DNA of 35,103 nucleotides, taken from Phocaeicola sp. (lineage in GTDB: Bacteria > Bacteroidota > Bacteroidia > Bacteroidales > Bacteroidaceae). The position numbers and the translations under genes are program-made. Positions 9,782 to 30,885 of this stretch are shown here, in pieces. The notes beneath the pieces are model-generated. The model was not told the origin of the DNA. It did not search any database and was given only the letters and a program-made list of their open reading frames with translations. The first letter of the stretch is position 1, and every line of letters starts with the position of its first letter. Location of the stretch: assembly GCA_022764505.1 (NCBI GenBank), contig JALEQJ010000017.1:1-35103 (forward strand). Reading direction: 5' to 3'.

Positions 9782-9867
9782 TCTATTCCGTACCACGAAA
9801 TATGTAAACTTCCACCCAAGTTTATATAAACCATAGCGGAAGTTTATATAAACCGAAGTGAGGAACA
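9782..9867 (+). repeat. 86-bp direct repeat, copy A
   Basis: Matches 17811-17896 over 86 bp with one difference (TACCAC here, TACTAC there). Inside are two identical AAGTTTATATAAACC boxes with a 22-bp period (starts 9818 and 9840), each with a GTTTATATAAAC palindrome. A longer inverted pairing joins GTAAACTTCC with GGAAGTTTAT. It ends one base before the terminator region of the minus-strand operon. The pair brackets the four-gene operon in direct orientation. Confidence 0.9.
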
Positions 9868-9868
9868 T

Positions 9869-9909
9869 AAAAAGAACTCCCCGATTTCCATTATCGGAAG
9901 TCGGGGAGT
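9869..9909 (-). terminator. Terminator of the four-gene surface-protease operon
   Basis: ACTCCCCGA (9876-9884) pairs with TCGGGGAGT (9901-9909), with further TTCC/GGAA pairing inside. On the minus strand a CTTTTTA tail follows. Confidence 0.85.
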
Positions 9910-9957: not shown

Positions 9958-10917
9958 TCAAAGCGCAATAGAAGCACCTACAGCAAGGCTATTTCTGGTA
10001 AATTCGCTCAATCCCAAACGATAAGTCAAGTCCACACTCACCTTACCGAAAGTCAAAGATGTGCCCAAAGAATAGAAATCCAAGCCTTTTCCTTGATGTT
10101 GGAAACCTGTATGTAAACCTATCATCTTACGATATTCATAAGATGCACCTACACCTATCTGGCTCTCTTTGTAAGAAGTTACATAGCCACCTTGCAGTTG
10201 CAAACCTACACTATGGTCTTCGTTTATATCGGACATAGCGCCTACTCCCAAAGAAATGGTAGAGGGCATACGATAAGATACACCTTCGCCATAGTTCAAG
10301 TCTTGACCGAAATGATGTGCGCTCAGCGTAGCCGTCCATCGTGTAGGCAATGTACCATCAAAGAGAGCTGTCTCATCTTTGTAGGAAACTCCTACACCGA
10401 AGATATAGTTGGTAGTCTGCTTGTTGGAAACGGAACGTATCATTGCAGCTGTGGCATACGCAAAAAATTTGTCGCAAGAATTATAGGCGTAACCCAAGTC
10501 CAATATAGTCTGATTAGGCTTGATGTTTGTAGCCAAATCCTCTCCCATACCGTTCACTTTAGGAATAGAAAGTCCGGACAAGTAGCGGAAACCTCCGAAG
10601 ATGGCGTGGTGTTCATTGAGCTTATAGCCCGCAGAAGCAACCACATACTTTTCTCTTCCTCCTATTTCTTGCTTAGGCATAAACTCTGTACCCACATAAG
10701 CGGAGAAACGAGACTCTACACCGAAGATATTGGTAGGGTTAGTATATAGGTAGTTATTACTATGAGTTACAAGGTTTGTTCCTCCTAAGGCTTGCGAACG
10801 TGCATCCGGATTAAGTTCCAAAATGCGTAGAGGAGCATTTCCTTGTGCGCATACAGAAGTAGCTATGAGCGTAGCTCCGGCTACTGCCAGCGATTTGCAA
10901 AGTATTTTCTTTATCAT
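9958..10917 (-). CDS. PorV/PorQ-family outer-membrane protein (type IX secretion associated)
   Basis: A 319-residue protein with a signal peptide (MIKKILCKSLAVAGATLIATSVCA, cleaved before QGN) and a beta-barrel-like body of alternating short strands ending LAVGASIAL. The family marker is the NPDARSQALGGTN segment (about residues 36-48), followed by NNYLYTNPTNI. In this FadL-like barrel family, PorV carries type IX cargo to the attachment complex and PorQ is involved in cargo anchoring. This protein is shorter than typical PorV and, unlike the core porV, sits as the last gene of an operon with one T9SS-type cargo protease, 12 bp after it. I infer a dedicated partner for that protease rather than the housekeeping T9SS component. 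No function has been shown for this paralogue. Confidence 0.82.
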   Translation of the reverse strand: MIKKILCKSLAVAGATLIATSVCAQGNAPLRILELNPDARSQALGGTNLVTHSNNYLYTNPTNIFGVESRFSAYVGTEFMPKQEIGGREKYVVASAGYKLNEHHAIFGGFRYLSGLSIPKVNGMGEDLATNIKPNQTILDLGYAYNSCDKFFAYATAAMIRSVSNKQTTNYIFGVGVSYKDETALFDGTLPTRWTATLSAHHFGQDLNYGEGVSYRMPSTISLGVGAMSDINEDHSVGLQLQGGYVTSYKESQIGVGASYEYRKMIGLHTGFQHQGKGLDFYSLGTSLTFGKVSVDLTYRLGLSEFTRNSLAVGASIAL

Positions 10918-10929
10918 AATCTTAGTTTA

Positions 10930-13692
10930 TTACTTGACGAATAATTGTTCAAAACGTGAGAATCCTTCTGCTTCTACTATCAGGCGATAGGTATTGGGAG
11001 CCAAAGCATTTACATTGAGTGTAACGATACCATCGGCTGTAGCTTTCACTTGATGGTCTGCCACTACTTTTCCTGCCATAGTTACAATACGTACACGTGC
11101 TATAGAGATCTTGCTATTCAATAGAAGATTCAACTTGGTAGTTACAGGCATAGGGTATACTAATTGTACAGGAGCTTCTGCATCTGCTACCACACGTACT
11201 TTCACTGTAGTTTCTATAGGACGGCTTACTTCATCGCTCACTTTCACACGCAGGGTGGTCATACCTTTCTTTACAGGAGTTACTTTGAGGACATTGTCTA
11301 CTACAGCTACACGTGCCACAGCTTCATTGGTAGAAACCGCTTCTACTTTCACAGCAAAGTCTGCATCGTAAGAGAAGTTCTTCAGCACCGGAATTTCCAA
11401 TTCGCCACCATTCATACCTACGACCATATCGGAGAAAGCCCCTGTGAGTTTCAGTAGATCGTGAGGCAATACGGTGAAAGTGATAGTTTTATTTGTAGTA
11501 TCACCCAGTTCATCTGTAGCATAAATTACGAAAGAGTAGTCTCCGGCAGGCAGTACAGAACGTACCACGATGGTTTGTACACCTTTTACTTCGGAAAGCG
11601 TAACACCACGTGTTTCTCCCTTGATGCCGAATTTTACCTTATGCCCGTCTTTGTCTTCTACCTTGAAAGTAATTTTAGCATCTCTATTACCTACTACTTT
11701 CACCTTGTCTGTTCCGGAAAGTAAGGTGATAACAGGTGCATTGTTATGCAAGGTCTTCTGTGTGAAGATTTCTGCAGCCGAACGGTTACCCCATCTATCT
11801 TCTGCCACGAGTGCAAAGTGATAATCTGTAGTGGTATTCAGTCCTGTGAACTTATAGCTCATAGTTTCTCCTGCTTTCGCTTCTTTCACCCAAATTTTCA
11901 TAGGTTTAAGAGCAGTAAGATTGGCAGCGGTAATAGGCTCTTTGCTCATATAGAGATAAACGTATGACGCTTTCTTATCGTCTTCGTCTGCAGGTACAGC
12001 CCAAGAAAGACTGATTTCCGTATGCGTAGACTTCACTTCTTTCTTCTTAGGTTTTTCCGGAGCTTTCTTTTGGTCTTTATCAAATACTACACCGGCATCA
12101 AGATAACCCAATCCGAGTCTGCCTCGTTCTGTAGGATTTTCCTCGTCTATATCCACAGGGAGGAAAGAGCTGAGCAATACTTTCTTGAGGTCTTCGTTTG
12201 TATAACCTTTACCACCGTATTTACTCAAAATAAGAGCTGCAGTTCCGGATACGTGAGGAGCAGCCATAGATGTACCTTGGAAATAAGCATACTTATTGTC
12301 TGCTACAGTACTGAGTACACCGGCAGCAGTACCGAATTTATCTATATCTCCACCAGGTGCCATAATATCCACCCAGTCTCCACGGTTTGTATAAGACGCA
12401 CGAGTAAAGTTGGTACTCATAGCAGATACCGCTATCACACGCTCATAAGCTCCGGGATAGCAGGGTGCATCTTCGTTGTCATTACCTGCTGCGAAGATTA
12501 CTAAACCACCCTTCATAGGTGAACCTTCACGTTGATTTCCTTTCTTATCCTTACCCGCATTGTCTATAAAGTAGTCTATCGCTTTCTTCAATGGTTCCGG
12601 GAATGGGAATCTTGGAGGATATCCCCAAGAGTTTTGCGCAATTACGGCACCATTGTCTGCAGAATACACCAAAGCATCTGCGGGATTACTGCCTGTGCGT
12701 TGTCCTTTTGGACGGCTATCTACAGCCAAGCAAGCCATTATGCGAACTCCACTATTTTCCGATCCATCACCACCGGCTACACCGCAAACACCTATATTAT
12801 TGTTGTTTTTTGCAGCTACAGTACCGGCTACGTGTGTTCCGTGGCTTCCCACTCTACCTTTCACCACGAAAGTGTTTCCGTGAACATCGTCCACTATACC
12901 GTTACCATCATTGTCTTTTCCATCGTTTGGAACTTCTTTTTCGTTTACCCAAAGATTGGCTTTCAGGTCTTCGTGGTTCAGATCCACTCCATCGTCTATT
13001 ACACTGACAATGACATTGGGTTTACCTGTTTCTATTTTCCACGCTTCAAACAAGTTAAGGTCTGCACCCAATACAGCACCCGGTGCCGTACCCATATTGT
13101 TGTAATGCCATTGGTCTACCAATTTAGGATCTGTAAAATGATGCTTGACAGAACGTTTTTGGAAAGTGCTGATCATATCATCTCCGAAAGCAGGAGAAAC
13201 CTGTACTCCATAAGTTTCTATAGGATATACCGCTTCTATTTTTTCAAATTCGGGTACAGCACTCAAGGTTTTTATAGCATCTGCAGTTTCTTTTTCTTCA
13301 TCGAAGTGAACTATATACCAAAGATGCAGATCGTACTTACGATGTCTTTCTTCAAACTCTTTGTTGGTTGTAAACATTGGTTTTACCATTGTTACTCCCA
13401 AACGTTTTGATGCGAGAGAGATAGGCTCGGATATAGAAGAGAAAGTCTGTATGTCTATCTCTCCTGTACTTTCCATAAGTCTTTTGGCTGTTTCTTCGCT
13501 CATCTTCACAAAAGCCTGACCTTTGATGGCTTCTGCTATGACAGGATTGATACGATAGTTTTCGTAACCATTGGGCTGTCTGTCTTTGTTCCTTGCATTT
13601 TCTGCAAGATCTTCTACAGCTCTATCCGCAGTACAACCCGATAATGTGATGGCACAGGCTGCGAATGTATATAATAAGTTCTTTATTTTCAT
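10930..13692 (-). CDS. Subtilisin-family (S8) serine protease with lipobox and T9SS-type C-terminal domain
   Basis: A 920-residue surface protease. The start is taken at the ATG at 13692 (MKIKNLLYTF), which gives a clean lipoprotein signal ending ITLSGC. The longer frame from 13749 overlaps the upstream gene and buries the signal. Residues about 45-190 form a propeptide-like region. The S8 domain (about 210-530) has all three catalytic residues: Asp233 in VIDDGVDL, His284 in GSHGTHVAGT and Ser475 in GTSMAAPHV, with oxyanion Asn404 in AAGNDN. A Ca-binding-like NDGKDNDGNGIVDD loop lies between Asp and His. After it come an Fn3-like domain (about 545-650), two Ig/cadherin-like domains (about 660-835), and a C-terminal domain starting VQLVYPMPVTTKLNL and ending FVK, resembling type A T9SS sorting domains. 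It is third in the operon, 29 bp after the BACON gene and 12 bp before the PorV-like gene. Confidence 0.92.
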   Translation of the reverse strand: MKIKNLLYTFAACAITLSGCTADRAVEDLAENARNKDRQPNGYENYRINPVIAEAIKGQAFVKMSEETAKRLMESTGEIDIQTFSSISEPISLASKRLGVTMVKPMFTTNKEFEERHRKYDLHLWYIVHFDEEKETADAIKTLSAVPEFEKIEAVYPIETYGVQVSPAFGDDMISTFQKRSVKHHFTDPKLVDQWHYNNMGTAPGAVLGADLNLFEAWKIETGKPNVIVSVIDDGVDLNHEDLKANLWVNEKEVPNDGKDNDGNGIVDDVHGNTFVVKGRVGSHGTHVAGTVAAKNNNNIGVCGVAGGDGSENSGVRIMACLAVDSRPKGQRTGSNPADALVYSADNGAVIAQNSWGYPPRFPFPEPLKKAIDYFIDNAGKDKKGNQREGSPMKGGLVIFAAGNDNEDAPCYPGAYERVIAVSAMSTNFTRASYTNRGDWVDIMAPGGDIDKFGTAAGVLSTVADNKYAYFQGTSMAAPHVSGTAALILSKYGGKGYTNEDLKKVLLSSFLPVDIDEENPTERGRLGLGYLDAGVVFDKDQKKAPEKPKKKEVKSTHTEISLSWAVPADEDDKKASYVYLYMSKEPITAANLTALKPMKIWVKEAKAGETMSYKFTGLNTTTDYHFALVAEDRWGNRSAAEIFTQKTLHNNAPVITLLSGTDKVKVVGNRDAKITFKVEDKDGHKVKFGIKGETRGVTLSEVKGVQTIVVRSVLPAGDYSFVIYATDELGDTTNKTITFTVLPHDLLKLTGAFSDMVVGMNGGELEIPVLKNFSYDADFAVKVEAVSTNEAVARVAVVDNVLKVTPVKKGMTTLRVKVSDEVSRPIETTVKVRVVADAEAPVQLVYPMPVTTKLNLLLNSKISIARVRIVTMAGKVVADHQVKATADGIVTLNVNALAPNTYRLIVEAEGFSRFEQLFVK

Positions 13693-13721
13693 ATTGATAA
13701 TCTTTATGATATGAGCTTTCA

Positions 13722-15398
13722 TTATTTCTTTGCCTTGGCTTGACACCATTTCTTATAGTTAGCCTCAGCTTTTTGAGCATAGGACTTGAAGAATTCTCTG
13801 CGTTCCATAAATGTAGAGTTCTTCACAGCAGAAGAGATATTATCGTCCAATCCGAAATAAGCAAGTCCCAATACCGGCTTCTTATCATTGTAATCTTCGT
13901 AATTTGGATAAACCTTCACTGTGAGTACTACTCCATCTTCGTAGCGTGCATAAGTTACAGAAGTCAGGTCTTGACTTTCGTATTGGAACTCAAAGCCAGA
14001 GCTCACCAACAAATTCTTGAATTCTTCTGTCAGTTTATATCTGCCTTGAGCTGTTTGCCACATTCCGGCAGAAATGTTTGTAAAGAAGTCTGTCTTTTGG
14101 AACAATAGTCCCATAGTCTTTTCTTTCTCTTGTTCAAAGAAGTAAATAGTAGCCAAGCGAGTAGAAACTTCCTTGCTGATAGGGAGGTATTCTGCAAAGT
14201 AAATCACGTTTGCATTCTTGTCTCCATACGCTCTATAAGTTTCTATAGAGTTACCTTCGGATTCTTCCCAAGCTTTTACAGCGAAGTAGTTTGCTTTATT
14301 GAAGAAAGACGTATTACGGAGTGGCAAAGTAGTAAACGTAGGGAATTCTCCACCTTGTCCTTCCGAAGCAGAATAAACTACTTCTGTCCAGTTTCCGGTT
14401 TCGGAAATTTGTACTGCAGCAGAGATTTCTACTTTTTTATTCACAAGTGCATAATGCTTCGTATGAACTCCTTTCTCAAATTTGTCAATCTTCTTTGAGT
14501 CTTTTACAAAACCTAAAGAGAACAAATGCTTCTCAAATGCCGGATCTAAACCAAATTTCGTATTAGGTGTTGTGATCACACATTGAGAGTAAATATCTGT
14601 TCCAAAAGGATAGAGATAAGAGATAGAAGAAGAATACTTGTCATTGCCCAAGAAAGAATAAGTCCAAGCTCCTTTTTCTTCTTTGCTACCTACAAGAGTT
14701 GTCCCACGCAAATTCTCGAACTTCATCATATCTTGACGTTTTTTACCGTACTCCAGCATATAAGGCAATAAGAAATCCGAAAGAGCTTGTTGCTTAATGA
14801 CAATTTCTTTGGTTACATCTGAGGTGCGCACATAGATTTTAGCTTCACGAGCCGTAGTTTCTCTGTTAGGAAGAACTACCAAGTCTATGTTTCCTTCTGC
14901 TGTTTTCTTCACAGTAATCCAAGGGAACATTTCCGCTCCTTCCAGCGTCCAGTTGGCATCTGTACCGGTAACATTCAACTCATAAGTTCCACCATTGCTG
15001 ATAACAGACAGATCTGTTTCCGATATTTCCAATACACTTTCTCCTGCACTCTGGCGGATATTGAGCACTGTAGAAGCATCTCCTGCATTGAGAAGTACAT
15101 AAGTTTCTCTTTCTGTACCGGTATCATTCTTCGCAGCGGAGAGAATCAAGGCATCTTCTTTCTTTTCCACAGAAAGCCATTTACCTTCTGCGGGAGATGT
15201 AGCAACCCATGATTTCGCATCTGTATTCACAATGATCACTTTTTTACCGCTTTCACGGGTAAAGCTCACCAACTCTTCGGAAAGCGTAATATACGCTTTC
15301 TCCATTCCGTCTATATCATTAACCTGAGAGTTGCATGATGCACACAGCAATGCCACACAACCTACCAGCCAATAAAATGTATGATTTATATATTTCAT
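13722..15398 (-). CDS. BACON-domain lipoprotein
   Basis: A 558-residue probable surface lipoprotein. The signal peptide ends in LLCASC, so lipidation at Cys22 is expected. Two tandem BACON (Bacteroidetes-associated carbohydrate-binding often N-terminal) Ig-like domains occupy about residues 35-120 (ending VLNIRQSAG) and 122-206 (ending EIVIKQQA), with the typical WLSVEKK and PWITVKK tryptophan motifs. The remaining 350 residues match nothing I recognise. They are rich in Lys and aromatic residues, without membrane segments. BACON domains mediate surface carbohydrate or mucin binding or act as spacers. It is the second gene of the operon, 12 bp after the Ig-like lipoprotein and 29 bp before the protease, so it may present or recruit the protease's target. 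Confidence 0.87.
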   Translation of the reverse strand: MKYINHTFYWLVGCVALLCASCNSQVNDIDGMEKAYITLSEELVSFTRESGKKVIIVNTDAKSWVATSPAEGKWLSVEKKEDALILSAAKNDTGTERETYVLLNAGDASTVLNIRQSAGESVLEISETDLSVISNGGTYELNVTGTDANWTLEGAEMFPWITVKKTAEGNIDLVVLPNRETTAREAKIYVRTSDVTKEIVIKQQALSDFLLPYMLEYGKKRQDMMKFENLRGTTLVGSKEEKGAWTYSFLGNDKYSSSISYLYPFGTDIYSQCVITTPNTKFGLDPAFEKHLFSLGFVKDSKKIDKFEKGVHTKHYALVNKKVEISAAVQISETGNWTEVVYSASEGQGGEFPTFTTLPLRNTSFFNKANYFAVKAWEESEGNSIETYRAYGDKNANVIYFAEYLPISKEVSTRLATIYFFEQEKEKTMGLLFQKTDFFTNISAGMWQTAQGRYKLTEEFKNLLVSSGFEFQYESQDLTSVTYARYEDGVVLTVKVYPNYEDYNDKKPVLGLAYFGLDDNISSAVKNSTFMERREFFKSYAQKAEANYKKWCQAKAKK

Positions 15399-15410
15399 AT
15401 TTGCTTATTA

Positions 15411-17258
15411 TTATGGATTTACAAGTACACGTGTAATATCTGTTGTTCTTCCATTCTTTCTATCCAATCCCACTACCATCAACTGATATTTTTTGAACTT
15501 GTACGGTTTCGGTACGAAGAACTTTCTATCTATTTTGAGCGTTCCTTTGTGCAACTTAAAGGCATCTACTCCTATATCACCCAAGAACAGTTTCCAAAGC
15601 ATGTGGTCTACAGGATCCCAGCCTTCATGTCCTTCTTTATTTCCGGCTTCACTCTCATTGAAGTAAAAATCAAAGAAGTTCTGTTGTTGCAAGCTGATGT
15701 AGTATGTAGCCTCATTGTCTGACGGTACGATAGTAGCTGCAAACTCCTTAGCATCCAGATCCAACTCATCTATTGTAACTTTGAATGTAAGGTTATTATT
15801 GGGGACACGCGGTTGAGTGCGGAAGCTATATGTGAGTGTTTCTGTGGTTTTCACTCCATTCTCGTCCAGTCCGTAGCAGTATGCCACGTATTCTGTATCC
15901 CACATTGGAAATCTTACCAAGTCGTCCAAATTTACTTCATGGTTACCTTTTATCAAGTCCATACGCAAAGCTTCCAACCAACGAGCTTTACCCTGATCTT
16001 TCCAGAAAGCAAAGTCATACTCACTAATGTCATCTGTACCAAACTCTGCAAGTGTTTTCTCATATTTGTGCTTAGGCAATACATAAACATAGTAAGTCAT
16101 ATCCGGATTTTTCACTTTCACGGAAAGCTTACCTTCTGTAGCTGTAAGGTCTGTTACTTTAAGTTCAAATACATCTGTAGAACCTTTTTCCATTACTCGT
16201 ACCTTACAGTCTGCGGTTTTTCCGGCAATAGTAGCGTGAATCATAGTTTCACCCGGTGCTACAGAGGAGACAAAACCATACTGATTTACTTTGGCTATCT
16301 TTTCATCATCGGATTTCCATGTAATCGGTTCAAAGAGGTTCATAGGCTCTGTTGTTGCTTTTACAAGCAATCCTTGTCCCAATGTAAGTTCTATAGCTGC
16401 CGGCGTAATAGAGATACTTTCTACTGCCACGTGCTTTTCTACCACTTCTACCTCGCAAGTTTCAGTGAATTTTCCCGCAGTAGCTGTAATTACGGCTTTT
16501 CCTACTTTATGCCCGGTGATTCTCCCGTGTTCTACAGTTACTACGTCTTTGTTATTGGAAGTCCATGCTATTTCTACATCTTTGGGGCGGTCTGCCTTTA
16601 TTTCTGTTTCTACGAAAGACACTTCTCCTACAGACAAGGTCTTTTTCTTTTCTACTATAGTAAAACCTTCTATTACTACATCTTGCGGTTTTACACGGAC
16701 AGTGGTAGAAGTGGTAAACTTACCGGCAGTAGCTGTAATACGTGTTGTACCCACCTTATAAGCAGTGAGTTCTCCACCTTGCACAGACACGATGTTTTCA
16801 TCTTCCGAAGTCCATACTATAGGCTCTGAAGCATCTGCTGGCGCAATAGTAATATCTGCTACACGCACATCTCCTACTTTCATATCCATCGTTTCCGGCA
16901 AACTCAAACCAGTGATAGCGATGTGTTTTTTCACTACACGCACCAAACAAACGGTAGATTTGCCACCTACTTCTGCCTTCACAAAGGTTTCTCCTTCTGC
17001 CAAGGCTTTTACTTCTCCTTCTGCTACAGAGGCTATGGCTGCATCTTCGCTTTTCCACAGCAGATCTTGTGTATCTGCGTTTTGAGGTGATACACTGGCT
17101 CTAAGGGAGGCAGTTTCTCCTATTACCAAGGTGAGTTTATGCTCACTGAGCCTAACTTCTTCTACCGGAACTTCCGGATCCGACTTTGGGGAACAACCTA
17201 CAGCCATCAAGACAGCAAGCAGGTAGAACCAAAGGTCTTTCATTTTGCTTTTTCTCAT
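15411..17258 (-). CDS. Ig-like (BIG2) repeat lipoprotein
   Basis: A 615-residue probable surface lipoprotein. The signal peptide ends MAVGC, with the lipidated Cys at 22. Four tandem bacterial Ig-like group 2 domains fill about residues 31-360. Each has the typical V-W-x-S-x-D/N-x-x-I/V-A/V core (LLWKSEDAAIASV, IVWTSEDENIVSV, IAWTSNNKDVVTV, ITWKSDDEKIAKV) and the G-T-x-I-x-A-x-A-G-K end strand. The last 250 residues are of unknown type, rich in Tyr, Trp and Lys. An alternative start five codons later (17243) would give an equally good signal. It is the first gene of the operon. The most likely promoter is about 350 bp upstream (TATATTTG at 17620-17613), implying a long leader. Adhesion or scaffold roles are typical of such proteins, but nothing specific can be claimed. 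Confidence 0.87.
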   Translation of the reverse strand: MRKSKMKDLWFYLLAVLMAVGCSPKSDPEVPVEEVRLSEHKLTLVIGETASLRASVSPQNADTQDLLWKSEDAAIASVAEGEVKALAEGETFVKAEVGGKSTVCLVRVVKKHIAITGLSLPETMDMKVGDVRVADITIAPADASEPIVWTSEDENIVSVQGGELTAYKVGTTRITATAGKFTTSTTVRVKPQDVVIEGFTIVEKKKTLSVGEVSFVETEIKADRPKDVEIAWTSNNKDVVTVEHGRITGHKVGKAVITATAGKFTETCEVEVVEKHVAVESISITPAAIELTLGQGLLVKATTEPMNLFEPITWKSDDEKIAKVNQYGFVSSVAPGETMIHATIAGKTADCKVRVMEKGSTDVFELKVTDLTATEGKLSVKVKNPDMTYYVYVLPKHKYEKTLAEFGTDDISEYDFAFWKDQGKARWLEALRMDLIKGNHEVNLDDLVRFPMWDTEYVAYCYGLDENGVKTTETLTYSFRTQPRVPNNNLTFKVTIDELDLDAKEFAATIVPSDNEATYYISLQQQNFFDFYFNESEAGNKEGHEGWDPVDHMLWKLFLGDIGVDAFKLHKGTLKIDRKFFVPKPYKFKKYQLMVVGLDRKNGRTTDITRVLVNP

Positions 17259-17810: not shown

Positions 17811-17896
17811 TCTATTCCGTACTACGAAATATGTAAACTTCCACCCAAGTTTATATAAACCATAGCGGAAGTTTATATAAACCGAAGTGAGGAACA
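17811..17896 (+). repeat. 86-bp direct repeat, copy B
   Basis: Same orientation as 9782-9867 and identical except for one base. It contains the two AAGTTTATATAAACC boxes at a 22-bp period. It lies about 550 bp upstream of the operon's first codon, so copies A and B enclose the whole operon and its leader with an 8,029-bp offset. Confidence 0.9.
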
Positions 17897-18030
17897 AACT
17901 TTTCTTACTGGCCTGTGAGGTCAGCTCAATAAATAATAGAGTATAGCACTATCTATAGCCTGTTTTCATAGAAATACAGCTTTGCTCATTATATGCACTT
18001 TATAAAAATGGCAGTAGAAATTCTCCTCCA

Positions 18031-18479
18031 AGCACAATACCTATGGCATTGTTTTAAGTGCGTACATAGGCAGGATTCTCCGTTTCACTCCGAACACCTG
18101 CCCTACCAACAGCAAATCCCCGATGGGGATTACTCACTTAAACGTAGCTGTATAGATGATATACTTGTAAACAATCTCAGGTTTGAGCAGTTATGATGAT
18201 AGTGGCTCATTTCAACCAATGCTGTTGGTAGAGCTTTCATTTATGTTTACTTCTCCTGAATAATGAGGTAATTTTCATCAATCTACAAAAAAAATAACGC
18301 CGTAGGCGTTATGCCGTTGTCAGGGCAGGGTTAGAAACGAAGTGGATAACCCTGTCTATGTATATTCCACCATTACCAACCCCACAGGGGTTGTGCGAAG
18401 AGTAAGGAAAGTAAGAACCTACCATAGTTTCACCAATGCGTACTGTTCTGAAGAGAAAACAAACTCTTTATTTCTCTTA
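18031..18479. repeat. Composite inverted-arm repeat, unit 1
   Basis: About 450 bp. A forward arm (18031-18131) begins AGCACAATACCTATG and ends with a hairpin of arms AATCCCC and GGGGATT. An inverted arm (18292-18397) begins with the hairpin ATAACGCC/GGCGTTAT and ends AACCCCACAGGGGTTGTGC. Read in reverse complement, the second arm aligns with the first (AGCACAA, ACATAGGCAGG, CCTGCCCTAACAA blocks). The spacer is about 160 bp. No coding frame is supported. Confidence 0.8.
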
Positions 18480-18962
18480 GCACAATACCTATGACATTGT
18501 TCTTGAACACGTACATAGGCAGGGTTCTACGTTTAACTCCGAACACCTGCCCTAACAATAGCAAATCCCCGATGGGGATTCCTTACTCAAACGTAGTGTA
18601 ATAGTATTTGTAAGTGATTATATACTCGTAAACAAGTTCACATCTGAACAGAATTCACATTCCAACCAACACCGTAAACATTGTGCCGTTGGTAGGATTT
18701 TCATTTTTGTTTACTTCCTCTTTGAATCGATGAGCTTACTTTCATCACTTTATACAAAAAAAAATAACGCCATAGGTGTTATGCTTTTTGTTAGGGCAGG
18801 GTTAGGAGCATAGCGGATAACCCTGCCTATGTGTATACTACCATAACCAACCCCATAGGGGGTTGTGCTAAAGCTTGCAAATAACCAAGCTCTAATGCAG
18901 ATACAAACGTGGTAAGTCTGTATGTTGCAATAACCTTCAACCAAAACCTCTCTATTTCTCCA
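18479..18962. repeat. Composite inverted-arm repeat, unit 2
   Basis: A tandem, diverged second copy of the preceding unit. The forward arm is at 18479-18580 (again ending in the AATCCCC/GGGGATT hairpin). The inverted arm is at 18762-18869, with hairpins ATAACGCC-ATA-GGTGTTAT and ACCCCATAGGGGGTTG. Small open frames in this region, such as the minus-strand frames around 18750-19048, are produced by the repeat and are not genes. Confidence 0.8.
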
Positions 18963-19020
18963 AGCACAATATACCTATACCAAATCCCCGATGGGGATTC
19001 CTTACTCAAATGCGGTCTGC
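18963..19020. repeat. Composite repeat, internally deleted unit 3
   Basis: Begins AGCACAATATACCTATA and jumps directly to the hairpin of arms AATCCCC and GGGGATT and the TTCCTTACTCAAA flank of unit 2. The middle of the forward arm is missing and no inverted arm follows. It ends about 215 bp before susA. Confidence 0.75.
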
Positions 19021-19236: not shown

Positions 19237-21078
19237 ATGAAGAAACGTATATGGAGCCTTGGGCTCTTACTATGGGGCTGTAGTATGATAGCATTTGCAC
19301 AGACCCTACAGAAAATAGAACCTGCTTTTTGGTGGGCAGGAATGAAAGAAACACAACTCCAATTATTATTGAGCGGGAAGAACTTGGGAACATCTCCCTT
19401 GCAAGTAAAAGGAGAAGGAATAAAAGTAGACAGCATAGTGCGTACCACCAATGCAGACTATACCCTACTCTACCTTGATATAGCACAAGCACCTGCACAA
19501 ACTTTTTCTATAGAAATAGGTACAGGAAAACGAGTGCGCAAGTATGACTATACCTTGTATGAACGAAGAAAAGGAACTTATGCACAAGGATTCAGCCCCA
19601 AGGACGTAGTGTATTTGCTTATGCCCGACAGGTTTGCCAATGGCGATCCCAAGAACGATGTGGTAGCCGGAATGAACGAGCAGAAAGCAGACAGAACAGC
19701 GCAGTATGCCAGACACGGAGGAGATTTAAGAGGAATCATACAGCACTTGGATTATTTTTCGGATCTCGGTGTAACGACGCTTTGGCTCAATCCTACTCAA
19801 GAAAATAATATGAAAGAGGGTTCCTATCATGGGTATGCTATTACGGATTATTACCGCACAGACCCTCGTTTGGGAACAAATGACGAGCTGGCAGAACTCG
19901 TAGACAAAGCACATAAGCGTGGGCTAAAGGTAGTTATGGATATGGTTTTTAATCATTGCGGGAGCGAAAATCCTCTTTTCAAACATCGCCCGTCGGAGGA
20001 TTGGTTCAATTATAAATCTCAATATGTACAAACTACTTTCAAGACAGCTACAGGCATAGACCCCTATGCCTCTACAGAAGATAAAAAAGTGGCAATAGAT
20101 GGCTGGTTTACTTCAGCTATGCCGGATTGGAACCAACGCAACCCCCACGTAGCAAAGTACCTCATACAGAGCAGTATTTTCTGGATAGAATATGCTGGTA
20201 TAGATGGTATAAGGCAAGATACGCACCCTTATGCAGATTACGATTTTATGGCACGCTGGTGCAAAACTGTGATGGAAGAATATCCACAGTTCAATATAGT
20301 AGGAGAAACATGGCTCAATAGCAATGTACAAATCGCTTATTGGCAAAGAAACAGCAAGCTATCAAAACAAAATTCTCACTTGCCTACTGTAATGGATTTT
20401 CCACTCTTCACAGCTATGGGAAAGGCATTTGATGAACCAACAGGAGAATGGGAGGGCGGTCTTTTCCGCCTATATGATTTACTCTCGCAAGACTTTGTCT
20501 ACACAGACGTAAACGGCTTGTTTACTTTCTTGGATAATCACGATACTTCCCGCTTCTTCAAGAATGCAGGAGATACAGCACGTATGGACAGATACAAACA
20601 AGCCATTACTTTTCTGCTTACTACACGCGGTATTCCACAGCTTTACTATGGTATGGAAATCCTGATGGCTGCAGACAAGAGCGAAGGAGATGGACACTTG
20701 CGCAGAGATTTCCCCGGAGGCTGGGCGGACGACAGTCAAAATGCGTTTACCACATCCGGACGCACCCTTGCACAAGAAGAAGCCTACCAAACCTTGCGCA
20801 CCTTGCTCCACTGGAGAAAGAACAACTCGGATATCATAATGGGTCGCTTGGTACAATTTACCATCAGAAAAGGTGTTTACGCTTATGCACGCATTGGAGA
20901 AAAGAAGACTGCACTCGTCATTATGAACGGAACAGATGAGGAGCAACCCATAGACTGGAAGGGCTATGCAGAGGTCTTGAAAAAGGGAGAAATGCAAGAG
21001 GTTTTCAGCGGTAACAGCCTTGATATACATCAAAAAAACAGCCTAAAACCAAGAGAAACTTTGCTCTTATGCTATTAG
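19237..21078 (+). CDS. susA: Neopullulanase, GH13 (SusA)
   Basis: A 613-residue periplasmic enzyme cutting imported malto-oligosaccharides and pullulan fragments. The signal peptide is residues 1-21 (cut after FAQ or IAFA). Residues about 25-110 form the N-terminal beta domain of the cyclomaltodextrinase/neopullulanase branch. The GH13 barrel follows, with VVMDMVFNH (230s), GIDGIRQDTH (nucleophile Asp328), IVGETWL (acid/base Glu357) and FLDNHDTSRF (Asp436). The C-terminal beta domain ends RETLLLCY. It is first of the Sus locus, in the same order as B. thetaiotaomicron. A 210-bp gap with a second promoter box and a hairpin separates it from susB, in line with separate transcription of susA. 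No adjacent susR is seen, unlike the classic locus. Confidence 0.95.
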   Translation: MKKRIWSLGLLLWGCSMIAFAQTLQKIEPAFWWAGMKETQLQLLLSGKNLGTSPLQVKGEGIKVDSIVRTTNADYTLLYLDIAQAPAQTFSIEIGTGKRVRKYDYTLYERRKGTYAQGFSPKDVVYLLMPDRFANGDPKNDVVAGMNEQKADRTAQYARHGGDLRGIIQHLDYFSDLGVTTLWLNPTQENNMKEGSYHGYAITDYYRTDPRLGTNDELAELVDKAHKRGLKVVMDMVFNHCGSENPLFKHRPSEDWFNYKSQYVQTTFKTATGIDPYASTEDKKVAIDGWFTSAMPDWNQRNPHVAKYLIQSSIFWIEYAGIDGIRQDTHPYADYDFMARWCKTVMEEYPQFNIVGETWLNSNVQIAYWQRNSKLSKQNSHLPTVMDFPLFTAMGKAFDEPTGEWEGGLFRLYDLLSQDFVYTDVNGLFTFLDNHDTSRFFKNAGDTARMDRYKQAITFLLTTRGIPQLYYGMEILMAADKSEGDGHLRRDFPGGWADDSQNAFTTSGRTLAQEEAYQTLRTLLHWRKNNSDIIMGRLVQFTIRKGVYAYARIGEKKTALVIMNGTDEEQPIDWKGYAEVLKKGEMQEVFSGNSLDIHQKNSLKPRETLLLCY

Positions 21079-21193
21079 TTTGTTTATATTTTTGTAGGGA
21101 GAAAATCTATTTATATTGTTGATATATAGAAATATAATACTTTTCAATACTTATAATTTATTTCTAATACAAACCTGCACCTTATAAAAGCCT

Positions 21194-21201
21194 TAGCTTT
21201 G
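21194..21201 (+). promoter_or_regulatory. -7 promoter box of susB-susG
   Basis: TAGCTTTG matches TAnnTTTG exactly, 88 bp before the susB start. The classic Sus locus also has a second promoter between susA and susB. No consensus -33 element is seen, as expected for an activator-dependent promoter. Confidence 0.55.
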
Positions 21202-21210
21202 ACTTGCAAT

Positions 21211-23466
<2,256 letters not shown>

Positions 23467-23473
23467 ATAAATT

Positions 23474-23505
23474 CTCTTCCGCAGTGGTAACCCACTACGG
23501 AAGAG
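23474..23505 (+). promoter_or_regulatory. Intercistronic hairpin between susB and susC
   Basis: The arms CTCTTCCGCAGTGG and CCACTACGGAAGAG pair over 14 positions with a single C/A mismatch, around a loop of about 4 nt. No T-tract follows, so it looks like a processing or stability element rather than a terminator. It lies 47 bp before susC. Confidence 0.7.
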
Positions 23506-23552
23506 TTACATAAGATATACGCAAGAAATCTTAATAACAAACTTAGTATAAC

Positions 23553-26500
23553 ATGAGAACAATTCAAAACAGAATGTTCAGGCAATTTGCGCTGTTAATG
23601 ACAGCCTTGCTTGTGTCCATTACTGCCTTTGCCCAAGACATTACGGTGAAAGGTATAGTACAAGACAAAATGGGACCTATTGTGGGTGCAAACGTTCACA
23701 TCAAAGGAACAACCACAGGAACCATCACAGGAATGGACGGAGACTTTACTATTGTGGCACCACGTGGTAGTATACTTGTAGTGTCCTTCATCGGTTACCA
23801 ATCTAAGGAAGTAACTGTTTCTGCCCCTATGATGGAAATAGAGTTGGTAGAAGACGCTTTGGTCTTGGACAATGTAGTGGTAATCGGTTACGGTTCTGTG
23901 AAAAAGACAGATATGACTGGTTCTGTTACAGCTATCAAGCCGGATAAGATGAACCGTGGTTTAGTAACCAATGCACAAGATATGATGACCGGTAAAATAG
24001 CCGGTGTAAGCGTTATTTCGGACGGAGGTACACCGGGAGGTGGCGCACAAATCCGCGTACGTGGTGGTTCTTCACTCAGTGCATCAAATGACCCACTTAT
24101 CGTGATAGACGGTTTGGCTATGGACAACACAGGTGTACAAGGTCTTTCCAATCCTCTTTCTGTAGTAAACCCTGCAGATATAGAAAGCTTCACCGTACTG
24201 AAAGATGCGTCTGCTACTGCTATCTATGGTTCTCGCGCTTCTAACGGGGTCATCATCATCACCACCAAGAAAGGAGAAGCCAACTCTCGTCCACGCTTTA
24301 CTTACAATGGTAATGCAGGTATAAGCTTCCTTACAGAACACGTAGATGTACTCTCCGGAGATGAATTCAGAAGTTTCATAGGCAAGCAATATGGAGAAGA
24401 TAGCCCTGCTTATCGTACCTTGGGAACAGCGAACACAGACTGGCAAAAAGAAATCTATCGCACAGCATTCAATACAGACCACAACTTCACCGTAACAGGC
24501 GGTTACAAGAATATACCTTACCGTGCTACGATAGGTTATACCAATCAGAGTGGTGTATTGAAGACCAGCAATTTCCAACGCTATACTGCTTCTTTGAGCG
24601 TATCTCCTTCTTTCTTTGAAAACCACTTGAAAGTAAATGCCAATTTGAAAGCCATGCTTGCAAAAAACAGATTTGCAGATGGCGGAGCTGTAGGTGCTGC
24701 GGTTCGTTTTGATCCCACACAATCCATATATATGGACGGAGATGCCTATGCCAAAAGTTTTGACGGATATTTCCAATGGTTGGGTACAAACGATATCAAA
24801 ACACAGATAGACCCTACATGGGCTCTTTATCCACAAAACTTAGCTCCGGGTAACCCTGTTTCTCTCTTGGACTTGAAAGACGATACTTCTAATGCGAAAT
24901 CTTTGATAGGAAACTTAGAATTGGACTATAAATTCCACGTATTGCCGGAACTTCGCTGGCATATGAACGGAGGTATGGATCTTTCTACAGGTAAACAGAC
25001 TACCAATGTAGCTGCCACTTCTTTCACAAACAACTATTACGGCAGCTTCGGCTTCACAGAAAAAGACAAGAGAAACCTCTCTTTCAGTACTTACCTCCAA
25101 TATATGAAGGAACACGAAGCTTTCCGTTACGATGTAATGGCAGGTTATGAGTGGCAACACTTCTATAACAAAGGAAATAAAGCCTTTTCCGGATTCTATC
25201 AGCTTACTGCTACAAAGAATGCAGGAGAACCTTATCAGCCAACAGATGACGAATGGAAAAACGAAAACTATTTGGTGTCTTTCTTCGGTCGTGCCAACTT
25301 TACACTCTTGGAACGCTATCTGTTCACAGCTACACTCCGTAGAGACGGTTCCTCTCGCTTCCACAAGAACAATCGTTGGGGTACATTCCCTTCATTTGCT
25401 TTCGCTTGGAAAGTAAACGAAGAGCCTTTCTTGAAGAATATAAAAGAAATCTCAGACTTGAAACTCCGCTTAGGCTATGGTCTTACAGGACAACAAGGTT
25501 TGAACGATGCTTTCTATGAATATATCCCTAAGTATTTAAGCAATGTAGAAGGTGCTTATTACCCTATCGTGGGAGATGGAAAGACTTCTTCTCCTTCCAC
25601 TTTCAATGAAAACCTGAAGTGGGAAAAAACTACAACTTACAATGTGGGTATAGACTTAGGCTTGTGGGACAATAGAATTACCTTGATAGCAGATGCTTAC
25701 TATCGCAAGACTACAGACTTGCTGAATAAGGTATATATTCCGGCAGCTACCAACTTTGGTACTATGCTTTTCAAGAATATCGGTTCTATGGAAAACAAAG
25801 GTTTTGAAATAGCTATCAATGCAAAACCTATCGTGAGCAATGACCTTACTTGGGACTTGAACTGGAACTTGACTTATAATACCAACAAGATTACCAACCT
25901 GATAGACGGGAATGGTGCCGGTTACTACGTACCAACCGGCGGTATCAGCGTAGGTACAGGTTCTACTATCCAAGCGCATGCAGTAGGACACCCGATGAAC
26001 TCATTCTTCGTTTATCAACAAGTATATGACAAAGCAGGTAAACCTATCCAAAATGCGTATGTAGACAGAAACGGAGATGGTGTTCTCACAGATGCAGACA
26101 GATATTTCTATAAAAAACCATCGGCAGATGTACTTATGGGACTTTCTTCTAAAGTCATCTATAAGGATTGGGACTTCAACTTTACACTTCGCGCAAGCTT
26201 GAATAACTATGTTTACAATGATGTGCAAGCCAACAACAGCGACTTGGTAAATACTTATTCTCCACAAAGTTTCTTGACAAACAAACCTCGTATAGCATTT
26301 GATCCCAATTTCCCCGGTACCGTAACCAAAGAAACTGCACAAAGCGACTACTTCGTGCAAAATGCCTCTTTCCTCAAATTGGATAACATCACTGTAGGTT
26401 ATTCATTCAAAGATCTATTCAACAGAGGTGTTAATGGACGTGTGTTCGGTACTATACAAAACGTATTTACTATCACAAAATACAAAGGTTTGGATCCGGA

Positions 26501-26576
26501 AATCAACAGCGGTATAGATAACAATATCTATCCTCGTCCTACTTCAGTATTATTCGGTGTAAACCTCAATTTCTAA
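23553..26576 (+). CDS. susC: SusC-type TonB-dependent outer-membrane transporter
   Basis: A 1007-residue outer-membrane porin importing malto-oligosaccharides with TonB energy. The signal peptide is residues 1-27 (ends ITAFA). The carboxypeptidase-regulatory-like domain (about 30-105) contains VKGIVQDKMGPIVGANVHIKG. The TonB box region is near DNVVVIGYGSVKK (about 107-119), followed by the plug domain (about 115-225) with the SusC signature ATAIYGSRASNGVIIITTKKG. The rest is a beta-barrel ending in VLFGVNLNF, with the terminal Phe typical of outer-membrane proteins. The next gene, 20 bp away, is susD, the partner that forms the lid of the transporter. Confidence 0.97.
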   Translation: MRTIQNRMFRQFALLMTALLVSITAFAQDITVKGIVQDKMGPIVGANVHIKGTTTGTITGMDGDFTIVAPRGSILVVSFIGYQSKEVTVSAPMMEIELVEDALVLDNVVVIGYGSVKKTDMTGSVTAIKPDKMNRGLVTNAQDMMTGKIAGVSVISDGGTPGGGAQIRVRGGSSLSASNDPLIVIDGLAMDNTGVQGLSNPLSVVNPADIESFTVLKDASATAIYGSRASNGVIIITTKKGEANSRPRFTYNGNAGISFLTEHVDVLSGDEFRSFIGKQYGEDSPAYRTLGTANTDWQKEIYRTAFNTDHNFTVTGGYKNIPYRATIGYTNQSGVLKTSNFQRYTASLSVSPSFFENHLKVNANLKAMLAKNRFADGGAVGAAVRFDPTQSIYMDGDAYAKSFDGYFQWLGTNDIKTQIDPTWALYPQNLAPGNPVSLLDLKDDTSNAKSLIGNLELDYKFHVLPELRWHMNGGMDLSTGKQTTNVAATSFTNNYYGSFGFTEKDKRNLSFSTYLQYMKEHEAFRYDVMAGYEWQHFYNKGNKAFSGFYQLTATKNAGEPYQPTDDEWKNENYLVSFFGRANFTLLERYLFTATLRRDGSSRFHKNNRWGTFPSFAFAWKVNEEPFLKNIKEISDLKLRLGYGLTGQQGLNDAFYEYIPKYLSNVEGAYYPIVGDGKTSSPSTFNENLKWEKTTTYNVGIDLGLWDNRITLIADAYYRKTTDLLNKVYIPAATNFGTMLFKNIGSMENKGFEIAINAKPIVSNDLTWDLNWNLTYNTNKITNLIDGNGAGYYVPTGGISVGTGSTIQAHAVGHPMNSFFVYQQVYDKAGKPIQNAYVDRNGDGVLTDADRYFYKKPSADVLMGLSSKVIYKDWDFNFTLRASLNNYVYNDVQANNSDLVNTYSPQSFLTNKPRIAFDPNFPGTVTKETAQSDYFVQNASFLKLDNITVGYSFKDLFNRGVNGRVFGTIQNVFTITKYKGLDPEINSGIDNNIYPRPTSVLFGVNLNF

Positions 26577-26596
26577 CACCTTAAAAGAAACGAACA

Positions 26597-28186
26597 ATGA
26601 AACGATATATTAAATCCTTATTACCAGTAGCGGTTATGGGTATGGTGTCTTTGACCTCTTGTGTAGGAGACCTTGATGTAGACCCAGAAATAGACCCTAA
26701 AACCAATGTAACATTTCAAGCGGATCCTGCATTCAACAAAGTGTATGCAAACCTTGGACTTACAGGAAGACAAGGACCTTCTGGTGCGCCGGACTTGGAA
26801 GGTAAAGACGAAGGTGCCAGCGGTTTTATCCGTGTACTCTGGAACTCCAATACATTACCTACAGATGAAGCTATCTGTGGCTGGAGCGACGGAGGTATCC
26901 TCGGTATGACTACCAATCAATGGGACGCGTCCAATGACTTTATCAATTTGCTATACTACCGTCTTATGTACGGTGTTTCTGTAGCCAATCACTACCTCGA
27001 AAAAACAGCAGAAGCTACAGATGCAGAATCTACAGTACGAAAAGCCGAAGTACGTTTCTTACGTGCCTTGCACTTCTATCATCTGATGGACGCATTCGGA
27101 AACATTCCTACTCCTATGGCTATTTCCAATGAATTGCCTAAGCAAAACAGCAGAGCAGAAGCTTTTGCACTCATAGAAAAAGAACTCACAGAGTGTTTAC
27201 CGAACCTGAAAGATGCACGTAGCAATACTTATGGCCGTGTAGACAAGGCTGCTGCATGGTTACTCTTGGCACGTTTGTACCTCAATGCAGAAGTGTACAC
27301 AGGCACAGCACAATGGAGCAAAGCAGCAGAATACGCAAAGAAAGTAATGGAATCCGGCTATACGCTCGCTCCTAAATATGCTTACTTGTTTATGGGGGAC
27401 AATGACAAGAATGGTGCGCAAAACGAAGTTATCCTCCCTGTCATTCAAGATGGTATCACAACCTTCTCTTATGCAGGTAGTACTTTCTTGATAGCCTCTA
27501 CACGCAATGCAGATATGACTGCAAACGAAGGCTCTTGGGGTATAACAGAACAATGGGCAGGAAACCGTTGTCGTCCTACATTGATAGAAAACTTTATCCC
27601 GGAAAATACAGAAGCTGTAACGAAAGACGTAGGCAATGCTACAAAGATGATAGCTATAGCCAAAGATGACCGTTCCCTTTTCTATAGTATGGATCGTAAG
27701 CTCACAAACGATAAAATCGGTACATTCAAGGACGGTTATAGCTGTCTGAAATGGAATGGTCTCTACTCTACAGGTACAGGTGGCAAAGACAGTAAGTTTG
27801 CAGATACAGACGTGCCTCTTATGCGTGCAGCAGAAGCCTACCTCACCTATGCAGAAGCTACCTTCCGTGCCAATGGAAAGAAAAGCAATGCAGAAGTAGC
27901 CAATGCCATCAATGCACTGCGTACACGTGCGCATGCAGCTACACAGCAAGCCTATACAGAACAAGAAATCTTGAAAGAATGGCAAAAAGAATTCTATTTT
28001 GAAGGTCGTCGTCGTATAGACTTGATTCGTTTCGGTATGTTCGGTGGATATAGCAATAAGAATACTTGGACATGGAAGAATGGCGTGAAAGACGGTTCAA
28101 ACTTTGCGGCTACAAAGAATATCTTCCCTATCCCAACAGAAGAAATGAATGCCAACTACTTGTTGAAACAAAATCCCGGTTACTAA
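26597..28186 (+). CDS. susD: SusD-type starch-binding lipoprotein
   Basis: A 529-residue outer-membrane lipoprotein of the SusD/RagB family that binds starch and caps SusC. The lipobox is SLTSC (Cys22), followed by an acidic DLDVDPEIDP stretch of the kind that exports lipoproteins to the surface. TPR-like helices are visible around VRKAEVRFLRALHFYHLMDA and KAAAWLLLARLYLNAEV. The conserved C-terminal block is WQKEFYFEGRRRIDLIRFG, with FPIPTEEMNAN near the end. It is tightly spaced with susC (20 bp) and susE (26 bp), fitting co-production of the C-D complex. Confidence 0.96.
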   Translation: MKRYIKSLLPVAVMGMVSLTSCVGDLDVDPEIDPKTNVTFQADPAFNKVYANLGLTGRQGPSGAPDLEGKDEGASGFIRVLWNSNTLPTDEAICGWSDGGILGMTTNQWDASNDFINLLYYRLMYGVSVANHYLEKTAEATDAESTVRKAEVRFLRALHFYHLMDAFGNIPTPMAISNELPKQNSRAEAFALIEKELTECLPNLKDARSNTYGRVDKAAAWLLLARLYLNAEVYTGTAQWSKAAEYAKKVMESGYTLAPKYAYLFMGDNDKNGAQNEVILPVIQDGITTFSYAGSTFLIASTRNADMTANEGSWGITEQWAGNRCRPTLIENFIPENTEAVTKDVGNATKMIAIAKDDRSLFYSMDRKLTNDKIGTFKDGYSCLKWNGLYSTGTGGKDSKFADTDVPLMRAAEAYLTYAEATFRANGKKSNAEVANAINALRTRAHAATQQAYTEQEILKEWQKEFYFEGRRRIDLIRFGMFGGYSNKNTWTWKNGVKDGSNFAATKNIFPIPTEEMNANYLLKQNPGY

Positions 28187-28212
28187 TTCATACCTCATAA
28201 ATACACAGTAAG

Positions 28213-29346
28213 ATGAAAAAGTTACAATATATACTGATGCTCTTATGTGCTACAGCATGCTTTACAGCTTGTAGCAGTGATAGAGAGTCCAATCCCGTAT
28301 TTGAGGCTCCTACAGAATTTAAGTTGAATACCCCTGCATTGGTAAACAATCTGTACGACCTAAAGAACTCTGCAAGTATCGTACTTACTTGCTCTCAAGC
28401 CAACTATCCTTATACAGCACCTGCCGCTTATACCGTAGAAGTGGCGTTGAGCAAAGAAGGATTTGAAAAAGAAGCTTTTAAAGTTCTTCCTACCGTTCAT
28501 AACAAAGCAAAGATGGAAATTCCTGCCGCAGAAATGGCGGTAGCACTCACAGAACTTAGTGGTAAGGAAGAAGCTGCTTTCCCTTACGAAACTCCGGTTT
28601 TTGTGCGTGTAAAATCCGAAATTCCCAACACAGGAAATAGTGCAGAAACAGCCATCTACTCTAATGTAGTAGAACTGCCACGTGTACAAGTGTACTATGC
28701 AATTCCTCCTGTGGAACTGCCTACACAAATGAACATCATAGGTGATATGGTTGGTTGGAAATGGGAAAATGCTTTCGCTATGATTCCTACACATAGTAAT
28801 CCTGATATTTTCTGGAGAATAGTTTACCTCCCTGAAGGCAAAGAACTTAAATTCAACGCCAACAGAGAATGGGACGGAGGACAATTCGGAGCCAAAGCCA
28901 CCATACATGACCTTGCAGGTGCCGGAATCAGTGGAAATGATAATATCAAGGTAGCCAAAGGAGGCTGGTATTTAGTCATCGTGAGAAATGAAATAGCAGG
29001 CAGTAAGCTGGTGAACCATGTTTACTTTGCTGCCCCCAATGTTTACCTCTTCGGTGCAACCAATGGCGGAGTATGGGATCATGCTCAAGCACCGCTCTTC
29101 ACTGTACCTGCTACAGACAAAGAAGAGTTTGTATCTCCGGCTTTTGTAGCTGCAGGAGAAATCCGTGCATGCGTTAATCTCAATGTAGACGATATTTCCG
29201 GAGTAGACTGGTGGAAATCCGAGTTTATAGTATTGGGAGGAAAAATCGCCTACCGTGGCGTAGGTGGAGACCAAGACCGCGTTTCCGGAGCTGTGGGTCA
29301 AAAACTCTATCTCAATTTCACAGACGGAACCGGTAAAGTAAAGTAA
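28213..29346 (+). CDS. susE: SusE outer-membrane starch-binding lipoprotein
   Basis: A 377-residue surface lipoprotein with lipobox CFTAC (Cys20). The N-terminal part (about 30-165) is an Ig-like SusE domain with KNSASIVLTCSQANYPYTAP and PVFVRVKSEIP. It is followed by two starch-binding modules. The first (about 170-265) has the MVGWKWENAF and ELKFNANREWDGGQFG motifs whose Trp and Lys/Arg residues line maltodextrin sites. The second (about 270-377) ends RVSGAVGQKLYLNFTDGTGK. Identification rests on order and motifs; sequence drift in SusE is normal. A gap of 85 bp with an imperfect hairpin leads to susF. Confidence 0.9.
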   Translation: MKKLQYILMLLCATACFTACSSDRESNPVFEAPTEFKLNTPALVNNLYDLKNSASIVLTCSQANYPYTAPAAYTVEVALSKEGFEKEAFKVLPTVHNKAKMEIPAAEMAVALTELSGKEEAAFPYETPVFVRVKSEIPNTGNSAETAIYSNVVELPRVQVYYAIPPVELPTQMNIIGDMVGWKWENAFAMIPTHSNPDIFWRIVYLPEGKELKFNANREWDGGQFGAKATIHDLAGAGISGNDNIKVAKGGWYLVIVRNEIAGSKLVNHVYFAAPNVYLFGATNGGVWDHAQAPLFTVPATDKEEFVSPAFVAAGEIRACVNLNVDDISGVDWWKSEFIVLGGKIAYRGVGGDQDRVSGAVGQKLYLNFTDGTGKVK

Positions 29347-29354
29347 TTCAAACC

Positions 29355-29399
29355 GAAGGAAAGAGGAAGGGAGAAAAGCTTCCTTCCCCATCTTCCTTC
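29355..29399 (+). promoter_or_regulatory. Intercistronic hairpin between susE and susF
   Basis: GAAGGAA pairs with TTCCTTC and, inside, GGAAGG pairs with CCTTCC, with an internal loop. No strong T-tract follows. It lies 33 bp before susF. Confidence 0.5.
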
Positions 29400-29431
29400 T
29401 GTGGAAAACAACAGATAAAAGAATACGAAAG

Positions 29432-30793: not shown

Positions 30794-30820
30794 CGATATG
30801 TTTATACATTTGTAATTTAG

Positions 30821-30862: not shown

Positions 30863-30885
30863 TTTCTATATCAAACAGAGGAAAA

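Follow-up and report, generated by a model that had tools for sequence, protein, structure and literature searches.

A subtilase lipoprotein bearing a type IX-like C-terminal domain has a neighbouring PorV-family barrel, both where SprA is detected and where it is not

We analysed a 35,103-nucleotide stretch of Phocaeicola sp. DNA (GenBank assembly GCA_022764505.1, contig JALEQJ010000017.1, positions 1–35,103; hereafter the window), in which a four-gene operon ends with genes for an S8-family subtilase lipoprotein and a PorV/PorQ-family outer-membrane barrel. The protease carries a C-terminal domain (CTD) of a kind usually read as a signal for the type IX secretion system (T9SS). The S8–barrel gene pair is conserved in relatives, including genomes in which the translocon protein SprA was not detected, and no SprA or GldM was found in the source genome itself. 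Judging from the sequences, the protease would probably be anchored to the cell surface at two points, as a lipoprotein whose uncleaved CTD docks on the neighbouring barrel, with no involvement of SprA or the sortase PorU.

Five pairs in the source genome

The four open reading frames (ORFs) of the operon lie on the minus strand from 17258 to 9958, with intergenic gaps of 12, 29 and 12 bp given an S8 start at the ATG at 13692:

15411–17258, minus strand: Big2 lipoprotein, 615 residues, accessory gene (four PF02368 matches; lipobox-like AVGC near the N terminus)
13722–15398, minus strand: BACON lipoprotein, 558 residues (two PF13004 matches)
10930–13692, minus strand: S8 subtilase lipoprotein with an Ig/fn3 region and a type A-like CTD (PF00082, PF16361, PF18962)
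10951–11160, minus strand: CTD of the S8 protease (TIGR04183, 24.2 bits in the genome scan)
9958–10917, minus strand: PorV/PorQ-family barrel of FadL type, 319 residues (NF033709, 123 bits; cut-off 90)

The chosen start yields a 920-residue protein with a short lipoprotein signal and a length close to that of relatives; a longer S8 ORF starting at 13749 would overlap the BACON stop. With this start, the gene order, composition and spacing proposed in a first-pass annotation hold (four Big_2 and two BACON domains, Peptidase_S8_N with Peptidase_S8, and PorV_fam at 123 bits).

The source genome (2.14 Mb in 70 contigs; a draft, 92.8% complete with 0.44% contamination) contains TIGR04183 matches in four genes and NF033709 matches above cut-off in five. 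Read together, these give five loci, at each of which an S8 lipoprotein gene is followed 7–24 bp downstream by a PorV-family barrel gene. The other four S8 proteins are 37–41% identical to that of the window, and their barrels 25–29%. BACON-family genes are found beside every pair: upstream of the protease in four cases (one being a 150-residue piece near a contig start, seen by a custom profile and not by Pfam) and after the barrel in the fifth (L012; loci are cited by L numbers and genomes by G numbers). The BACON lipoprotein of the window aligns with five such lipoproteins from three of the other loci at 21–27% identity. At a further locus, the C49 S8–barrel pair is followed (L014:4908–6548) by a small lipoprotein-like protein and a 289-residue protein with a thiol-activated cytolysin match of 28.7 bits.

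SprA (TIGR04189) had no match in the source genome or in any of the seven own-genus genomes drawn, the source included; the same search was positive in 84 of 121 family genomes. GldM (TIGR03517) was found neither in the source genome nor in five other genus members, and all five SprA-positive family members examined were positive. The link to type IX secretion that the first-pass annotation had drawn was not borne out for this organism, as neither SprA nor GldM was found.

Distribution of the pair

Scanning genome contigs with the five own-genome S8 proteins gave 79 loci (L017–L095; best 80 of 545 matches kept). A barrel gene lay directly downstream of 52 of the 62 short CTD-bearing S8 genes at these loci, and of none of the 3 short CTD-less or 14 long S8 genes (over 1,200 residues, mostly about 2,500). 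Genes were classed as CTD-bearing with a profile (E 0.01) built up from the source genome's own five CTDs. The pairing count omits five S8 genes at locus edges, identical-tail duplicates (including L031) and L047, where no intact S8 ORF was called; the entry of L101 as barrel-less is a gene-calling artefact. In a genus survey with PF16361 covering all 61 own-genus genomes, 31 S8 genes were found: a barrel was directly downstream of every CTD-bearing gene (18/18) and of no CTD-less gene (0/12), and one S8 was truncated where its contig ended. In G180 and G192 the S8 gene is broken, and at 83 bits the barrel of G180 falls below the cut-off of 90. These two samples are free of barrel choice; loci L096–L123 were fetched by barrel matches and L124–L139 taken at barrel positions. 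The 12 CTD-less genus proteins are about 700 residues long and are followed by a gene for 260–280 residues (DUF1573 in the one scanned), resembling B. thetaiotaomicron BT0211–13, listed as BACON, S8 and DUF1573 (PMC10434189). A Porphyromonas sub-clade without the CTD also lacks the barrel (3/3) and is nested in a clade of CTD-and-barrel genes.

We tested the host genomes of 50 loci, hand-picked from the 79 at one per genome, for SprA; 26 were positive and 24 negative. By hand count, an adjacent pair is present in 22 of the 24 SprA-negative and 23 of the 26 SprA-positive genomes, and the SprA-negative isolates with a pair include Bacteroides sp. ET71, Bacteroides sp. GM023 and Odoribacter laneus YIT 12061. 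These counts include G162 on an 84-bit barrel and G165 on a partial barrel where a contig stops, enter L081 (edge) and L072 (long S8) as not adjacent, and treat G143 and G190, which have identical coordinates, as one genome; the 24 SprA-negative genomes may otherwise overlap with the genus survey.

The barrel could instead be a dedicated shuttle within type IX secretion, the SprA-negative pairs being remnants or cases of missed SprA genes. The 26 SprA-positive hosts are consistent with this, as is the fact that CTD and barrel both belong to T9SS families, and dedicated shuttles encoded downstream are known for type B CTDs (PMC12618676, PMC9143113). We regard this explanation as improbable in view of the source genome, which has five intact pairs and no detected SprA or GldM, of the pairs in the three SprA-negative isolates, and of the lipoprotein nature of the paired S8 proteins, which the 13 long S8 proteins do not share.

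The protease: tail and lipoprotein start

The S8 protein consists of a propeptide domain (PF16361), the S8 domain, Ig/fn3-like repeats and the CTD. Residues D252, H303, N373 and S494 (ORF numbering) are invariant across the five own-genome paralogues; we take D252, H303 and S494 to be the catalytic triad and N373 presumably to have a catalytic role as well.

The cargo falls in the type A CTD class, with a borderline score for the window protein itself: its CTD alone gives 24.6 bits against PF18962 (cut-off 27) and, against TIGR04183 (cut-off 23), 19.7 bits when proteins were scanned and 24.2 when the genome was. Of 43 aligned relatives, all previously assigned to the CTD-bearing class, 42 are recognized by PF18962 (E ≤ 0.01). 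The window CTD has motif B (YPMP) and the final K, and its motif D reads NTY, not GxY. Motifs B, D and E, which contact PorV (PMC11969387), are present in 31, 38 and 39, respectively, of 39 S8 proteins classed as SprA-negative (six of these, L096, L098, L102, L103, L104 and L119, coming from genus members outside the SprA search), and all three occur together in none of 15 CTD-less S8 proteins.

The N terminus is a lipoprotein signal whose cysteine is invariant in all 43 aligned relatives. A lipobox was found in 66 of 68 full-length short S8 proteins by a relaxed pattern, loosened after a stricter first version gave 36 of 70; the other two are lipoprotein-like by eye, and none of 13 long S8 proteins matched. 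After the cysteine, residue +4 is D or E in 46 of 66 short S8 proteins and residue +2 is Q in 19 of 66. Because these residues resemble the lipoprotein export signal described in PMC5080379, the short S8 proteins are predicted to be surface-exposed, and the protease shares the export-signal-like N terminus of surface lipoprotein–barrel complexes. Three CTD-less S8 proteins without a barrel are lipoproteins by the same pattern.

Could the barrel itself carry or flip its own lipoprotein across the outer membrane, as a two-gene secretion device? The constant downstream position of the barrel and the lack of a detected SprA-type channel would suit such a device. We consider it very unlikely, given that a FadL-type barrel appears from its fold to be too narrow for a folded enzyme of ~100 kDa, that the S8 N termini are already export-signal-like and that the three proteins without CTD or barrel are lipoproteins all the same.

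The barrel and its co-variation with the protease

The window barrel exceeds the PorV/PorQ family cut-off and scores 51 bits against the PorV orthologue model (NF033710; cut-off 250) and 46 bits against that of PorQ (NF033711; cut-off 220). The five own-genome barrels give 51–104 bits on the PorV model and 24–52 on the PorQ model; positive controls reached 519 bits on the former (L124) and 403 on the latter (L125). The nearest approach is the paired barrel of genus member G177, at 199.5 bits on the PorV model. With scores under both curated cut-offs, we rejected core PorV and core PorQ as identities of the barrel. The PorP-family model TIGR03519 was not listed for the window barrel and gave 27.4 bits for the L012 barrel (cut-off 90.55). 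A 43-residue stretch of PorV is missing from the window barrel, and the closest structures are PorV chains, among them 8gl6, a complex with bound CTD.

In an unrooted tree of 80 barrels, PorV (5) and PorQ (6) each form one group (support 99 and 100) and the S8-linked barrels fall together on one side, weakly supported (72); among them, the barrels from most genus members come closest to PorV and PorQ. In relatives, the PorV gene stands ahead of what we take to be an ispF-like gene in all five loci read, and PorQ ahead of a presumed cmk-like gene in 4 of 6. Carriage of the barrel on plasmids was rejected, as tblastn against 72,556 plasmid records returned no match.

An alternative is that the barrel is a FadL-type importer, co-transcribed to take in a small molecule that the protease sets free (haem, lipid or hydrophobic peptide), the CTD merely capping or stabilizing the enzyme. 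We think this unlikely, although it deserves consideration: it leaves the co-occurrence of CTD and barrel in the genus (18/18 versus 0/12) unexplained, albeit over few independent events, and PorV outranks FadL among the structural matches.

Across 56 pairs, barrel distances correlate with those of the Ig region (0.75), the CTD (0.70) and the catalytic domain (0.57), and in six multi-copy genomes none of 2,000 within-genome shuffles matched the true pairing, for the CTD or for the Ig region. The PorV-like partner dedicated to the protease that the first-pass annotation had postulated is supported by these shuffles, by the adjacency in 52 of 62 cases and by the presence of five PorV-family genes in the source genome; the window barrel is thus not the only one there, and none of the five exceeds the PorV or PorQ cut-off.

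Proposed mechanism

Under the two-point anchoring that we favour, the S8 protease would be exported by Sec as a lipoprotein, and the general surface-lipoprotein route would carry it to the cell surface, given the residues after its cysteine. The uncleaved CTD would then dock on extracellular loops of the barrel encoded by the next gene, as T9SS CTDs do on PorV, so that the protease is held twice, by lipid at its N terminus and by the barrel at its C terminus; neither the SprA translocon nor the PorU sortase would take part. Substrate binding or product uptake may fall to BACON or Big2 lipoproteins and, in other lineages, to SusCD. The docking step is proposed because of the pairing, the motifs and the fold, and the earlier steps because of the signal sequences. 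Surface proteolysis for peptides or for haem and iron is the probable use: pepS8 and porV/Q occur in hmuY gene clusters (PMC12106395) and the Prevotella intermedia operon responds to iron depletion (PMC10434189), which makes a role of the pair in peptide or haem/iron acquisition likely.

Several observations weigh against this mechanism. In the T9SS, the CTD contacts PorV loops over ~850 square angstroms and SprA over ~1,000, and a reduced affinity for PorV outside the translocon is inferred in the same article (PMC10994853). Half of the host genomes tested carry SprA, and a T9SS role is possible there. The GldM model is too narrow for Porphyromonas, having missed two SprA-positive genomes there; PorU was covered in the source genome by one search without a positive control, with a weak match on an S8 CTD alone; and that genome is a 92.8% complete draft. 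Strict motif B is absent from seven own-genus S8 proteins and from L088, and the window protein has NTY as motif D. Co-variation with the barrel is at least as strong for the Ig region as for the CTD, and shared inheritance of the operon would by itself keep the pairs together. CTD-free S8 proteins appear at two places only on the S8 tree, and because the CTD changes only twice (at most two independent events) the test of CTD–barrel coupling is powerless (sign test, p 0.5–1). One-to-one pairing also fails where CTD-bearing S8 genes have no barrel directly downstream, namely at L032, L046, L067 and L144–L149, and for the plus-strand S8 of L075, an S8 of L153 and the G168 array; in G153 (L067), an S8 with a CTD occurs with no barrel over the cut-off.

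In some lineages from gut and rumen, such unpaired genes are not uncommon: 3 of 5 in G146, 3 of 4 in G159 (counting L075), 1 of 2 in G151, one in G154 and a tandem array in G168. A barrel is present elsewhere in these five genomes and in G142 (L046), which allows for barrel sharing, as is known for orphan type B cargo (PMC12618676). The converse, a barrel gene with no neighbouring S8, is seen in G161 and G168. At L140, in a SprA-negative genome, CTD-bearing S8 lipoproteins are encoded in a tandem array with no adjacent barrel; four were called, and TIGR04183 gave six CTD matches. Proteins of ~1,000 residues that are not S8 proteases, with a partial CTD match and no barrel beside them, are encoded in genus member G183 and SprA-negative G142 (L150:3570–6587 and L151:3711–6695).

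Relation to known systems

Related arrangements are already known: type B CTDs with barrels of their own, PorZ held by PorQ, and complexes of a surface lipoprotein with a barrel. The pair resembles PorV with type A CTD cargo in its barrel family, in CTD motifs B, D and E and in having PorV as top structural match, but differs in the lack of detected SprA and GldM, in a barrel gene beside a single cargo gene and in a lipoprotein cargo; from PorV proper, the window barrel differs by the missing 43-residue stretch and by its 51 bits against a cut-off of 250. Type B CTD proteins with PorP/SprF barrels are likewise encoded as cargo followed by its own FadL-family barrel, with anchoring proposed and some orphans sharing, but they require the T9SS, PorP-family barrels and type B CTDs (PMC9143113, PMC12618676), whereas here the barrel is of the PorV family, the CTD is type A-like and the host genomes may have or lack SprA. 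PorZ–PorQ offers the likeness of an uncleaved CTD that stays on a PorV/PorQ-type barrel; PorZ, however, is part of the T9SS (PMC10202324), and the PorQ score of the window barrel is 46 bits against 220. SusCD, BamG–BamH and Bt1926–Bt1927 also combine a surface lipoprotein with an outer-membrane barrel, BamG also being FadL-type (PMC12578637), but in the present pair the lipoprotein is a protease and would be expected to touch the barrel through a C-terminal T9SS-like domain. In P. intermedia, BACON, S8 and PorV/PorQ genes stand side by side (PIOMA14_I_1836–40; PMC10434189), and pepS8 and porV/Q adjoin in hmuY clusters (PMC12106395); in the text consulted these are named as annotation, without a mechanism.

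What appears to be new is a type A-like CTD on a lipoprotein protease with a PorV-family barrel, kept in SprA-less genomes; no description of the S8–barrel pair as a system was found in the open-access literature searched. The data suggest that tail-and-barrel pairing can work as a stand-alone surface anchor. A bolder claim, to which we give little credence, is that the CTD and a PorV-family barrel form a complete T9SS-independent surface-display module, in which the barrel alone captures the CTD and brings about display, T9SS cargo handling being a special case built on, or stripped down to, lipoprotein–barrel pairing. If CTD and PorV-type barrel persist without the secretion machine, the presence of a CTD no longer proves type IX export. 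CTD–barrel docking could then be examined with neither translocon nor sortase present, using tractable T9SS-free Bacteroidota, and a protease class would join the surface-lipoprotein–barrel complexes that these bacteria use for feeding.

Upstream genes and other features of the window

Upstream of the 48 pairs with enough upstream sequence, we found BACON genes in 31, a SusD homologue in at least 12 (a lower bound from one query) and Big2 relatives in 4; the window Big2 lipoprotein has relatives at L017 and L018 (38% and 31% identity). The conserved four-gene unit that had been suggested for the window is rejected, since Big2 relatives precede so few pairs. A SusD homologue followed by the S8–barrel pair occurs at L051, L059, L062, L073, L077, L078 and L095 (SusC and SusD confirmed by Pfam at L051 and L077); loci of this group read in detail also encode SusC and a lipoprotein of ~290–310 residues, resembling peptide-uptake operons.

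Further features surround the operon:

9879–9899, minus strand: terminator-like hairpin
9782–9867, strand not applicable: left copy of an 86-bp direct repeat
17811–17896, strand not applicable: right copy of the 86-bp direct repeat

As for the shared terminator of the first-pass annotation, a terminator-like hairpin is present, but the region contains roughly as many sites of this kind as chance predicts (9 observed against 6.3 ± 2.8 expected). Rfam and ARAGORN searches of the window returned nothing at the operon and one tRNA-Ser at the far end of the window. The direct repeat, whose copies are 98.8% identical, brackets the operon and could provide a route to cassette-like gain or loss; a 36-bp portion of it recurs near two further S8 loci, L012 and L015. 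Positions 17900–19010 hold few genes and repeated blocks with palindromes, which are found again at L012 and L013 of the same genome. Beyond them, at 19237–32949, lies a starch utilization cluster in sus order, with GH13, GH97, SusC, SusD, SusE, SusF and SusG-like genes.
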